Program-made: the position numbers and the translations under genes | Origin: Zhihengliuella salsuginis | GTDB taxonomy: Bacteria; Actinomycetota; Actinomycetes; Actinomycetales; Micrococcaceae | NCBI RefSeq assembly: GCF_014651715.1 | Contig: NZ_BMXK01000004.1 | Coordinates: 62,001-126,000, forward strand | DNA length: 64,000 nt | Direction of reading: 5' to 3' | The notes under the pieces: generated by a model | Seen by the model: the letters and a program-made list of their open reading frames with translations, nothing else | Told to the model about the DNA's origin: nothing | Database searches by the model: none | In this document: positions 34,928 through 39,008 of the stretch, piece after piece | Layout of the letters: every line of letters begins with the position of its first letter | Position numbering within the stretch: the first letter of the stretch is position 1

Positions 34928-36238
34928 CTACCCGAGCAGGTGTGAGCGGAGCGTGCGCCCCTCGTAGGCCCGGCGGAACCGGCCGCGCTCCTGCAGGACC
35001 GGGACCACGAGGTCCACGAAGTCGTCGATGCCCTCCGGCAACGACGGCGGCATCAGGTTGAAGCCGTCGGCTCCCCCGCCGTCGACCCACCGCTCGATCT
35101 CGTCCGCGATCTGCTCCGGGGTGCCGATGAACGTGGCGTGCCCGCCGCCGGCGGCCAGGTAGCCGAGGAGCTCGCGCACGGTCGGCCGCGTGCTCTCGAT
35201 GATGCGCAGCACCGTGGCGTAGCGGCCCTGCGGGCCCCTGAACTCCTCCAGCGGCGGCAGGTCCGGAACCGGGGCGTCGAGCTCCCAGCCCGAGGTGTCG
35301 GCGCCGACGAAGAACGCCAGCTGGCGCAGCGAGTCCTCGACCGGCAGCAGCTCGTTGAGCCCGCGCTGGATCTCCTTCGCCTCCTGCTCGGAGGACGCGA
35401 CGTAGGTGACGAGGCCGGGCATGACCGCCACGCCGTCGGGGTCGCGGCCATGCTCGGCCACCCGGGACCGGATGTCCCGGCGGTACGCGCGCGCCGACTC
35501 CAGATCCCAGGCGACCGCGTAGATGCCCTCGGCGCACCGGGCCGCGAGGTCGCGCCCGGGCTCCGAGGCGCCCGCCTGGAACACCACCGGGCGGCCCTGG
35601 GGCGGCTGCGGGACGTTGAGCGGCCCGGCGACGTCGAAGTACCGGCCGCGGTGGTCGATCGGGTTCAGCTGCCCGGCGTCGGTGTAGGTTCCGGAGCGGT
35701 CGGCGACGATCGACTCCGCCGGCCACGAGTCCCAGAGGCCGGAGAGGACGGTGACGAACTCCGCCGCCCGGGCGTACCGCTCCTCGTGGCCGGGGAGCCC
35801 GGCCATGGAGTGGTTGTGCGCCTCCGCGTCGGTCATCGAGGTCACCACGTTCACTCCGGCCCGCCCCGCGGAGATGTGGTCGAGGCTCGCGAGCTGCCGG
35901 GCCGCATTGAAGGGGTTCCAGAACGTGCTGGAGACCGTGGTGACCAGGCCGATCCGCTCCGTCGCCCGGGCCAGCGCGGTGAGGGTCGTGATCGGTTCGA
36001 GGAACCACCGCGGTCCGCGGTCGATCCCGTCGAGTCCCGCCGACTGCCCGTCGGCGAGGAAGATCGCGTCGAAGAGCCCCCGTTCAGCCGTCCGCGCGAG
36101 CTGCTCCCAGTAGCCGATGTCCCCCAGGCGGTCCACGCTCGACGCCGGCGCGCGCCAGGCCGCGGCGTGGTGTCCGCACCCGTGCGCGAACAGGTTCAGG
36201 TGCACCTGCCGGGCCCCGCCGTCGTTCCCTGGGGCCAT
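34928..36238 (-). CDS. LLM-class flavin-dependent monooxygenase (NtaA/SnaA/DszA type)
   Basis: 436 residues, ATG 36238 sharing one base with the SDR stop. Landmarks: NLFAHGCGHHAAAWR, YWEQLARTAERGLFDAIFLADG, ITTLTALARATERIGLVTTVSSTF and FQAGASEPGRDLAAR. These define the reduced-FMN monooxygenases that act on nitrilotriacetate, dibenzothiophene sulfone, pristinamycin and similar compounds. Second gene of the unit behind the TPP riboswitch. It would need an FMN reductase, not present nearby. A role on a thiamine-related heterocycle is inference only. Confidence 0.88.
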   Translation of the reverse strand: MAPGNDGGARQVHLNLFAHGCGHHAAAWRAPASSVDRLGDIGYWEQLARTAERGLFDAIFLADGQSAGLDGIDRGPRWFLEPITTLTALARATERIGLVTTVSSTFWNPFNAARQLASLDHISAGRAGVNVVTSMTDAEAHNHSMAGLPGHEERYARAAEFVTVLSGLWDSWPAESIVADRSGTYTDAGQLNPIDHRGRYFDVAGPLNVPQPPQGRPVVFQAGASEPGRDLAARCAEGIYAVAWDLESARAYRRDIRSRVAEHGRDPDGVAVMPGLVTYVASSEQEAKEIQRGLNELLPVEDSLRQLAFFVGADTSGWELDAPVPDLPPLEEFRGPQGRYATVLRIIESTRPTVRELLGYLAAGGGHATFIGTPEQIADEIERWVDGGGADGFNLMPPSLPEGIDDFVDLVVPVLQERGRFRRAYEGRTLRSHLLG

Positions 36239-37035
36239 CAGTTCTTCACCAGCCCGCCGTCGATCACGAGGTTCTGGCCCGTGGCCGCCCGCGCCCAGGG
36301 CGAGGCGAAGAAGAGGACGGCGTCGGCGAACTCCGCCGGCGTCGTCACCGACCGCAGCGGCGTGGACTCGGCGATCGCGTCGAAGACCGGCTCGGGCGTG
36401 GCCGCGCTGGCGTCGGTCGTGCGCAGGAGCCCGCCGCTGACCATGTTCACGCGGATGCCGCGCGGCCCCAGGTCGTCGGCGAACGTGCGCGTGAGCGACA
36501 GCAGGGCCGCCTTGGCCGCCGTGTAGTCGTGGTACGGGACCACGGGGTGCTGGAAGAGGTTCGTCCCGACGTTGATCACGCGGCCGGACCCGAGCTGTTC
36601 GAAGCCGGGCAGAGCGGCCTGGACGACGTTCACCGCCCCCTGGATGGTTCCCGCGAACTGGTCCGCGAACTCCCCGTAGCCGATCTCGTGCGCGTGGGAC
36701 CGGGCGTCGCCGTTGAAGGAGAAGCCGACGAGGGCGTTGTTGACCACCGTCGACACGGGAGAGCCGAACGCCTCGTTGGCGCGGGCGACGAGCGCATCGA
36801 CCTGGGCCCGGTCGCGGACGTCCGCCCGGGCGGCGACGACGCGGCCCGGATGATCGGCGGCGAGCTGCTCGGCCGCCTCGCGGCTCTCGTGGTAGCCGAC
36901 GGCGACCTTCGCCCCCTGGCGGAGGAAGGCCTCGGTGATGGTGCGGCCCAGGCCGCGCGCGCCGCCGGTGACGAGGACCGTCTGGTCCGCGAGGGCCGGC
37001 GCCTGCCGGCCGGTGGTGGTTTCGATGGTGCTCAT
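36238..37035 (-). CDS. Short-chain dehydrogenase/reductase controlled by a TPP riboswitch
   Basis: 265 residues from ATG 37035, with AGAAGGG upstream. Coenzyme motif TGGARGLGR; catalytic YTAAK. Two positions differ from the norm: NNAG is NNAL, and the catalytic Ser 13 residues before the Tyr is Thr (VGTNLFQHP). C-terminal FFASPWARAATGQNLVIDGG is standard SDR. First gene behind the THI element, and translationally coupled to the monooxygenase. I recall an SDR called oarX reported under THI elements in other bacteria; identity with this one is not established. Confidence 0.88.
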   Translation of the reverse strand: MSTIETTTGRQAPALADQTVLVTGGARGLGRTITEAFLRQGAKVAVGYHESREAAEQLAADHPGRVVAARADVRDRAQVDALVARANEAFGSPVSTVVNNALVGFSFNGDARSHAHEIGYGEFADQFAGTIQGAVNVVQAALPGFEQLGSGRVINVGTNLFQHPVVPYHDYTAAKAALLSLTRTFADDLGPRGIRVNMVSGGLLRTTDASAATPEPVFDAIAESTPLRSVTTPAEFADAVLFFASPWARAATGQNLVIDGGLVKN

Positions 37036-37112
37036 GTGCGCGCCCTTCTGCTGGTGGCGAGGGCACGTCGGGAGGCATCGCCGCGGCCCGGCCGGATGGT
37101 CGGAACCACCGG

Positions 37113-37135
37113 CCGATGCGCGGAAGCCGCATCGG
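37113..37135 (-). other. Hairpin just after the riboswitch (candidate expression platform)
   Basis: A perfect 8-bp stem (37113-37120 with 37128-37135) begins 3-4 nt after the conserved GGGAAT of the THI element. A second stem with a 1-nt bulge follows (37092-37112). There is no U tract, so control of transcription by Rho or of translation is more likely than classic intrinsic termination. Confidence 0.45.
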
Positions 37136-37137
37136 AC

Positions 37138-37216
37138 ATTCCCTTCGCCAGTACTAACTGGATCAGGTTCGACGGGTCTCATCTCAGCCACCGGCGGTGG
37201 CGCCCCGAGTCATTGC
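37138..37216 (-). promoter_or_regulatory. TPP riboswitch (THI element)
   Basis: Minus-strand sequence shows the conserved THI core in order: CTCGGGGCGCC, GGCTGAGAT (37181-37189), GACCCG, GAACCTGATCCAGTTAG with CCTGATC at 37161-37167, TACTGGCGAAGGGAATG (GGCGAAGGGA at 37140-37149). This is the aptamer that binds thiamine pyrophosphate and usually shuts off genes when TPP is plentiful. The SDR start codon is about 100 nt further on. Confidence 0.95.
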
Positions 37217-37222
37217 ACTAGG

Positions 37223-37228
37223 ACGCTA
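37223..37228 (-). promoter_or_regulatory. Predicted -10 box of the riboswitch transcript
   Basis: TAGCGT on the minus strand, placed so that transcription would begin near 37216, the first base needed for the THI element. The -35 region is weak. Confidence 0.45.
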
Positions 37229-38264: not shown

Positions 38265-39008
38265 TCAGATGAGCAGGTTCACCGCGCCGAGTGCGGTCAG
38301 GACCAGCACGGCGACCTCGAATACCTTCTGCGGGATCCGCGAAGCGAGCCAGCGGCCGGCGAAGGCCCCGGCGACGACGAGCGGGACGAGCGAGACGGCG
38401 ATGGCGAAGATGTGCGCATCTAGCAGGCCGAGGCCGATCTGGAACGGCAGCTTCGCCAGGTTCACGACGAAGAAGAAGTAGGCGGCGGTGCCGAGGAAGG
38501 CCTTCACGGGCAAGCGCATCGAGAGCAGGTACAGGCTCATGACGGGTCCGCCGGCGTTGGCGACCATGGTCGTGAACCCGCCGAGCGTCCCGTAGCCGTA
38601 ACCGGCGGCGCGCGACGGCGAGGGGACAGCATCGGCGCGCGCCCTCTCCCGGCGCTGCCAGAGAGCGAAGCCCAGCAGCGCGAGCAGGATCGCCCCGATG
38701 ACGCGGCGCACGACGTCGTCCGTGGAGGCGCCCAGGAACACCGCGCCGACGACCATGCCGGCCAGCACGCCAGGGACCAGCCTGCGCAGGGTGCGCCAGT
38801 CGACGTCGTTCCGGTACATCCACACGGCGAAGAGGTCGCCGACGATCAGGAGCACGAGCAGCGCGCCTGTGGACTCGCGGGCCGGCAGGACGGCGGCGAA
38901 GAGCGCGACGCAGAGGGTCCCGGCTCCGGGCAGGGCGGTCTTCGCGAAGCCCGCGAGCAGGGCACCGAAGCCGAGGACCACCCAGCCGAGGACATCGAGT
39001 TCGATCAC
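38265..39008 (-). CDS. TSUP (TauE/SafE) family sulfite/organosulfonate exporter-like
   Basis: 247 residues, seven to eight hydrophobic segments, with the family pattern GFGALLAGFAKTALPGAG near the N-terminus and GFTTMVANAGGPVMSLYLL in the middle. GTG start at 39008; TAAGGT (minus strand, 39015-39020) lies 6 nt upstream, so leaderless. Substrate unknown; sulfur compounds are typical. Confidence 0.88.
   Translation of the reverse strand: MIELDVLGWVVLGFGALLAGFAKTALPGAGTLCVALFAAVLPARESTGALLVLLIVGDLFAVWMYRNDVDWRTLRRLVPGVLAGMVVGAVFLGASTDDVVRRVIGAILLALLGFALWQRRERARADAVPSPSRAAGYGYGTLGGFTTMVANAGGPVMSLYLLSMRLPVKAFLGTAAYFFFVVNLAKLPFQIGLGLLDAHIFAIAVSLVPLVVAGAFAGRWLASRIPQKVFEVAVLVLTALGAVNLLI

Follow-up and report, generated by a model that had tools for sequence, protein, structure and literature searches.

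A riboswitch-linked dehydrogenase–monooxygenase pair in Zhihengliuella salsuginis as a proposed module for thiamine-precursor salvage

Why does a thiamine pyrophosphate (TPP) riboswitch precede two genes for neither the synthesis nor the transport of thiamine? Such riboswitches mark genes for the acquisition of vitamin B1, most of which have known roles, whereas the dehydrogenase family treated here and its exchangeable partners have had no function assigned. The question arises from a 64,000-nucleotide stretch of the Zhihengliuella salsuginis genome (contig NZ_BMXK01000004.1, positions 62,001 to 126,000; hereafter, the window), in which an earlier note, made from the sequence alone, had described a TPP riboswitch (THI element) followed by a short-chain dehydrogenase (SDR) gene and a luciferase-like flavin monooxygenase (LLM) gene. 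Salvage of altered thiamine or conversion of a precursor, as proposed in that note, is also the best reading here, based on the link to TPP riboswitches and on operons shared with thi genes. On balance, we think that SDR and LLM recover one half of thiamine, most probably the pyrimidine, from an altered vitamer and do so through an aldehyde that is reduced to hydroxymethylpyrimidine (HMP).

All features of the module lie on the minus strand. The aptamer (37217-37122) is, by covariance-model score, a predicted member of the TPP riboswitch family: the match to Rfam RF00059 spans model positions 1-105 of 105 with 66.9 bits (gathering score, 54.3; E = 5.7e-11), and it is the sole Rfam match over threshold in the window. 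The 86-base leader between the aptamer and the SDR start (37121-37036) was examined by sequence and predicted fold. No terminator-like site was found in this leader, and the AGAAGGG motif at 37049-37043, located with a 7-nt spacer ahead of the SDR start codon (ATG, 37035), is predicted to be partly base-paired, which would make translation control the likelier mode of the predicted switch. SDR (265 aa, 37035-36238; Pfam PF13561/PF00106) belongs to NCBIfam family NF006393 (PRK08642, which bears the name of a 3-oxoacyl-acyl carrier protein reductase), with 406.6 bits against a cut-off of 292, and LLM (436 aa, 36238-34928) belongs to TIGR03860 (NtaA/DmoA family), with 512.8 bits against 279.7. 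The SDR stop codon (TGA, 36240-36238) and the LLM start codon (ATG, 36238-36236) overlap by exactly one base. The THI element, the NtaA-type assignment of LLM, and the one-base overlap given in the earlier note are thus confirmed, but the interval that it assigned to the system (36238-37228) holds only the aptamer and SDR, with LLM falling outside. Both genes look constrained, as judged from dN/dS values of approximately 0.21-0.25 (Nei–Gojobori, two relatives).

Is the riboswitch linked to the pair, or does it stand there by chance, as homologous pairs without THI elements would indicate? A homologue scan of 84,980 species genomes yielded at least 80 loci (designated L; genomes, G). A covariance model derived from 25 aptamers was run on 79 of these, omitting L023 because its genome was already represented by a first copy. 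Some of the loci searched had themselves contributed aptamers to the model; where relatives were scored with the Rfam model, the outcome agreed. Among the loci listed, an aptamer lay upstream on the same strand in all 26 testable loci with an LLM identity of ≥63% (an additional locus, L031, is truncated), whereas none was found in the sequence covered for 52 loci with an identity of ≤50%, three of which (L057, L078, and L087) have fewer than 500 bases upstream. This contrast rules out a chance location. Within 297 genomes of the order, a close LLM was present in 13 (fragmented in one of them), and 22 others carried a distant LLM (44-49%). The aptamer was clear in 11 of the 13 holder genomes and weak in two; that of G161 scored 38 bits with our model at the head of the operon, and that of G090 is degenerate (33.5 bits in Rfam). 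No aptamer was found within approximately 1.5 kb on each side of the 17 distant-LLM loci L105-L121. A regular expression for the element produced false matches and an apparent aptamer in L103 with a score of only 33.5 bits in Rfam.

In an LLM tree built with a quick method and supported by SH-aLRT only, the TPP-linked LLMs formed one clade of 38 rows (support 92). Of these, 34 have SDR and a TPP aptamer upstream, and two have a zinc alcohol dehydrogenase; one is truncated, and the sequence of the last ends before the aptamer. SDR and LLM occurred together in 43 of 48 close-LLM loci (some genomes counted twice); the remaining five were the truncated L031 and four loci of the two genomes with the alcohol dehydrogenase. 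In Brachybacterium massiliense, two copies of the module lie in opposite orientation on one contig (L022/L023). Separately, a 40% LLM homologue occurs in four records named Listeria phage (OR848160, OR846733, OR848164, and OR846724), which may be bacterial DNA.

The genes that share operons with the pair are largely thiamine genes. A TPP aptamer is followed by thiY-thiX-thiZ-SDR-LLM in L021, where ThiY matches two PDB sequences at E = 1e-10, one of them the formyl-aminomethylpyrimidine binding protein 3ix1; by thiM-thiE-SDR-LLM in L019 and L030, facing a thiD with its own aptamer; by SDR-LLM-thiM in L014; and by SDR-LLM and ykoE-type and ykoDC-type genes in L099/L127. In two genomes, a zinc alcohol dehydrogenase (ADH; PF08240/PF00107) takes the place of SDR, in the arrangements ADH-LLM (L124) and thiO-thiS-thiG-thiF-ADH-LLM (L125). 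These contexts support the SDR–LLM pair as a TPP-linked thiamine-precursor module. A metabolic by-pass operating when TPP enzymes fail, for example, the disposal of aldehydes or keto-acid products, could also be imagined, since both enzyme types are generic and a TPP switch shows only that the TPP level matters. The repeated operons with thiM, thiE, thiD, thiYXZ, ykoEDC, and thiW-type genes argue against it, and we consider a by-pass improbable.

Partner exchange became apparent on plasmids. Among 72,556 plasmid records, the TPP-SDR-LLM trio was found in Pseudochrobactrum (two records opened), Rhodococcus, Mesobacillus, and Exiguobacterium (LLM in two pieces), with an aptamer in all five opened loci and hosts in Pseudomonadota, Actinomycetota, and Bacillota. 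Following SDR through plasmids gave 44 records at E = 1e-50. In Gemmobacter, Neorhizobium, and Rhizobium, the arrangement was TPP-thiM-thiE-thiD-SDR without LLM (aptamer in 3/3; the Rhizobium locus is unannotated, and thiM, thiD, and SDR were the only genes recognized there). A third arrangement, TPP-LuxE-LuxC-(transporter)-SDR, occurred in Azospirillum (two), Pantoea (two), Niallia, Priestia, Lactiplantibacillus, Levilactobacillus, and Pseudomonas, the last with broken frames. LuxC-type matches numbered 27 plasmid records at E = 1e-40, and the aptamer was present in the nine that were opened, eight of them over threshold and one, that of Priestia, falling short of the gathering score with 49 bits. 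The LuxE (PF04443) and LuxC (PF05893) domains are encoded by adjacent genes and score far under the NCBIfam cut-offs for true lux enzymes (e.g., 124 versus 750 bits). Searches of loci L013-L131 turned up neither LuxE nor LuxC, and those of the LuxE–LuxC loci turned up no LLM. In the SDR tree, the SDRs of the LuxE–LuxC loci (three included) branch outside those paired with LLM, and those of the thiM-thiE-thiD loci fall inside. Each of the 15 plasmid SDRs scored had NF006393 as its top model, and 13 exceeded the cut-off. TPP control of SDR thus persists across partners that vary among LLM, LuxE plus LuxC, and thiM-thiE-thiD, and the description of the system as SDR and LLM only, given in the earlier note, does not extend to relatives, which place LuxE/LuxC, a zinc alcohol dehydrogenase, thiYXZ, or thiM-thiE-thiD under the same switch. 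The presence of an aptamer in 17 of 18 opened plasmid SDR loci (one below threshold) argues against a role of SDR as a 3-oxoacyl-acyl carrier protein (ACP) reductase in fatty acid synthesis. On a Niallia megaplasmid, two tandem TPP aptamers (L175, 1161-1457) precede thiW-NCS2 permease-LuxE-LuxC-SDR, and a TPP-permease-LuxE-LuxC-SDR operon is carried by small plasmids of two food lactobacilli (L178, 1390-6321; L179, 2267-7198).

Which step could such different partners share? In the lux system, LuxE and LuxC convert an acid into an aldehyde. The solved structures closest to LLM are those of Bacillus subtilis YtnJ/MoxC (330 bits), which we take to be CmoJ. CmoJ releases an aldehyde from an S-benzylcysteine sulfoxide, an arylmethyl sulfur compound (PMC10863075). 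Taken together with the exchange of SDR for an alcohol dehydrogenase, these two activities point to one common step, aldehyde to alcohol. Two alcohols feed thiamine synthesis, HMP and hydroxyethylthiazole. We propose SDR as the aldehyde-to-alcohol reductase and LLM as the aldehyde-releasing enzyme, with a putative cleavage of a C-N or C-S bond by reduced flavin mononucleotide (FMNH2) and O2. When TPP is scarce, the riboswitch would permit the production of both proteins; LLM would most likely break the CH2-X linkage in a pyrimidine compound, where X is N, S, or sulfonate, freeing 4-amino-2-methylpyrimidine-5-carbaldehyde; SDR would reduce this aldehyde to HMP; and ThiD, which is fused to TenA in this genome, would phosphorylate HMP for thiamine synthesis. 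In other bacteria, an SDR of the same family would receive its aldehyde from LuxE and LuxC, which would form it from the carboxylate, and the zinc alcohol dehydrogenase may replace SDR in aldehyde reduction.

The nearest relatives of the LLM clade bear on this proposal in two ways. The pair L105/L108 is sister to the TPP-linked clade (joint support 95), and two clusters of the sister lineage, L122 (694-11030) and L123 (644-7430), both encode LLM, TenA, a GMC oxidoreductase, and two amidohydrolases. L122 additionally carries genes for an aldehyde dehydrogenase, a flavin reductase, an M20 hydrolase, and a GntR-like regulator, and L123 has a gene of the nitroreductase family. The proximity of the sister LLM to TenA, and in L122 also to an aldehyde dehydrogenase and a flavin reductase, is consistent with a vitamer-directed aldehyde route. 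By gene content, however, L122 and L123 are candidate thiamine-catabolic clusters, and their catabolic appearance would suit a degradative SDR and LLM that clear damaged thiamine or a toxic analogue oxidatively. We hold out little prospect for such a clean-up role: neither L122 nor L123 contained a TPP aptamer when searched, bacterial TPP aptamers are normally OFF switches for acquisition genes, and LuxE/LuxC partners work reductively in the lux system. The TPP-linked lineage has its own residues in LLM (W78, Y240, D245, F310, W318, and others); when these were mapped onto the BdsA substrate pocket (PMC5819316), the numbering offsets disagreed, and the mapping was dropped.

If a thiamine half is recovered, which half is it? 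The genome contains four TPP aptamers, including that of the window. The others precede a ykoE-type gene fused to an ATPase (PF09819 plus an ECF-type ATPase, of the ykoEDC type), thiO-thiS-thiG, and thiM, close to which lies a thiD-tenA fusion. In contrast, thiC is a broken remnant (Pfam match of 45 aa only), whose decayed stretch matches residues 66-255 of the ThiC frame of a relative at 37%. Since the assembly is 99.95% complete and lacks an intact thiC, the organism can probably make thiazole but not pyrimidine. The remnant lies on contig C10 (near 163857-163994; L012, L163) beside a LacI-type regulator, and an intact thiC copy is present in the same genus (G253).

Across the order, full ThiG was found in 9 of 13 holders versus 67 of 284 others (p = 0.0009), and full ThiC in 1 of 13 versus 45 of 284 (p = 0.70); kinship is ignored in these and the following p values. 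The association with missing thiC or thiG, suggested in the earlier note as a check, therefore fails for missing thiC as a simple rule, and what is enriched is thiG without thiC, with 8 of 13 holders versus 31 of 284 others (p = 3.5e-5) and, within one genus of the order sample, 3 of 5 versus 0 of 15 (p = 0.009). This enrichment indicates the pyrimidine half, which we favor over the thiazole half, without certainty. In the thiazole version, LuxE–LuxC or LLM would make 4-methylthiazole-5-acetaldehyde, and SDR would reduce it to hydroxyethylthiazole for ThiM. We regard this version as rather unlikely because holders tend to make their own thiazole, most transporters seen in the modules belong to pyrimidine or nucleobase families (NMT1 [NMT1/THI5] in L021, L173, L177, and L182; NCS2 permease in L175 and L178), and CH2-X cleavage by LLM would fit pyrimidine better than the thiazole side chain.

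Several observations nevertheless weigh against pyrimidine salvage by a TPP-controlled SDR family. ThiW has a role in thiazole metabolism, and its presence in the LuxE–LuxC operon L175, together with thiM in the operons of L014, L019, L030, L170, L171, and L172, could mean the thiazole half. The test for thiG without thiC ignores descent, and the eight holders concerned fall in six genera. ThiC is intact in 11 of the 27 holder genomes reached through the loci listed (ThiG in 19 of 27), and the module is therefore no plain stand-in for thiC. The presence of TenA does not track with the pair in one genus (5 of 8 holders versus 21 of 25 others at E = 1e-10). The Caballeronia SDR locus (L174) shows no aptamer in the stretch examined. 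Finally, the seven SDRs scored from the LuxE–LuxC loci lie at the edge of NF006393, five at 294-300 bits and two below the cut-off (L178, 276.4 bits; L181, 278.1 bits). Two simpler rules were rejected. ThiC replacement does not hold in the order, in the 27 genomes above, or in a single genus, where, across 33 genomes, ThiC occurs in 2 of 8 holders versus 8 of 25 others. A substitute for TenA was suggested by TenA matches in 0 of 5 holders versus 13 of 15 others of the sampled genus at E = 1e-20, but this apparent exclusivity is a threshold artefact, because 5 of 8 holders carry a TenA domain at 1e-10. In the genus of G206, several genomes without the pair have two side-by-side TenA-like genes (e.g., G342:C3:38568-39865).

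Around the module, a formate/nitrite-transporter-family gene (34845-34003) lies 82 bases after LLM on the same strand and may be read through from the riboswitch operon. Although SDR and LLM directly follow the THI element, the statement of the earlier note that they are the only genes behind it is accordingly uncertain for the transcript. The gene lists of L013, L014, L016, and L021 showed no such transporter gene behind LLM, with no dedicated search made. On the other side, a permease-like gene, TauE-type by eye, occurs near the module in both the window (38265-39008, minus strand) and Kocuria (L013, 1416-2159), and the two are similar; a link to sulfite release is a thought only.

Parts of this system resemble known ones. 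Rodionov et al. reportedly described in 2002 an SDR, oarX, under THI elements; oarX is plausibly of the same family as the SDR of the window and would share the placement of an SDR under a TPP riboswitch, whereas the partners, breadth, and proposed function are additions of the present analysis. CmoJ, an alkylcysteine sulfoxide C-S monooxygenase, serves cysteine salvage, unlike the proposed role of LLM, and we know of no TPP control or SDR partner for it. The ThiXYZ-TenA-YlmB system salvages formylaminopyrimidine under TPP control. It likewise recovers the pyrimidine half, and a ThiY-type protein occurs in one SDR–LLM operon (L021), but it is hydrolytic without a redox step, and the genome studied here carries TenA alongside the pair. 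The LuxC/LuxE fatty acid reductase of luminous bacteria has the same domains in adjacent genes, whereas the plasmid versions, besides their low lux scores, stand behind a TPP aptamer and are followed by SDR. In the literature listings searched, we found no account of the SDR–LLM pair, the LuxE–LuxC–SDR operon, or their role; the regulon tables of PMC3766115 and PMC2258182 may list these genes. TPP-controlled vitamer salvage is thus of a known kind, and the enzymes and the exchange of partners appear undescribed.

More tentatively, these genes may constitute an undescribed B1 salvage hub in three phyla, partly spread by plasmids, in which a TPP-controlled reductase would convert pyrimidine aldehyde to HMP and would be fed either by LLM, from pyrimidine-CH2-X compounds, or by LuxE/LuxC-type enzymes, from the carboxylate. 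If so, the oxidized pyrimidine (aldehyde or carboxylate), normally seen as dead-end B1 waste, would become a usable vitamer, and genes annotated as 3-oxoacyl-ACP reductase, acyl-CoA reductase, or LLM oxidoreductase could be named by their function. Soil, plant-associated, and food bacteria would then recover oxidized B1 debris.

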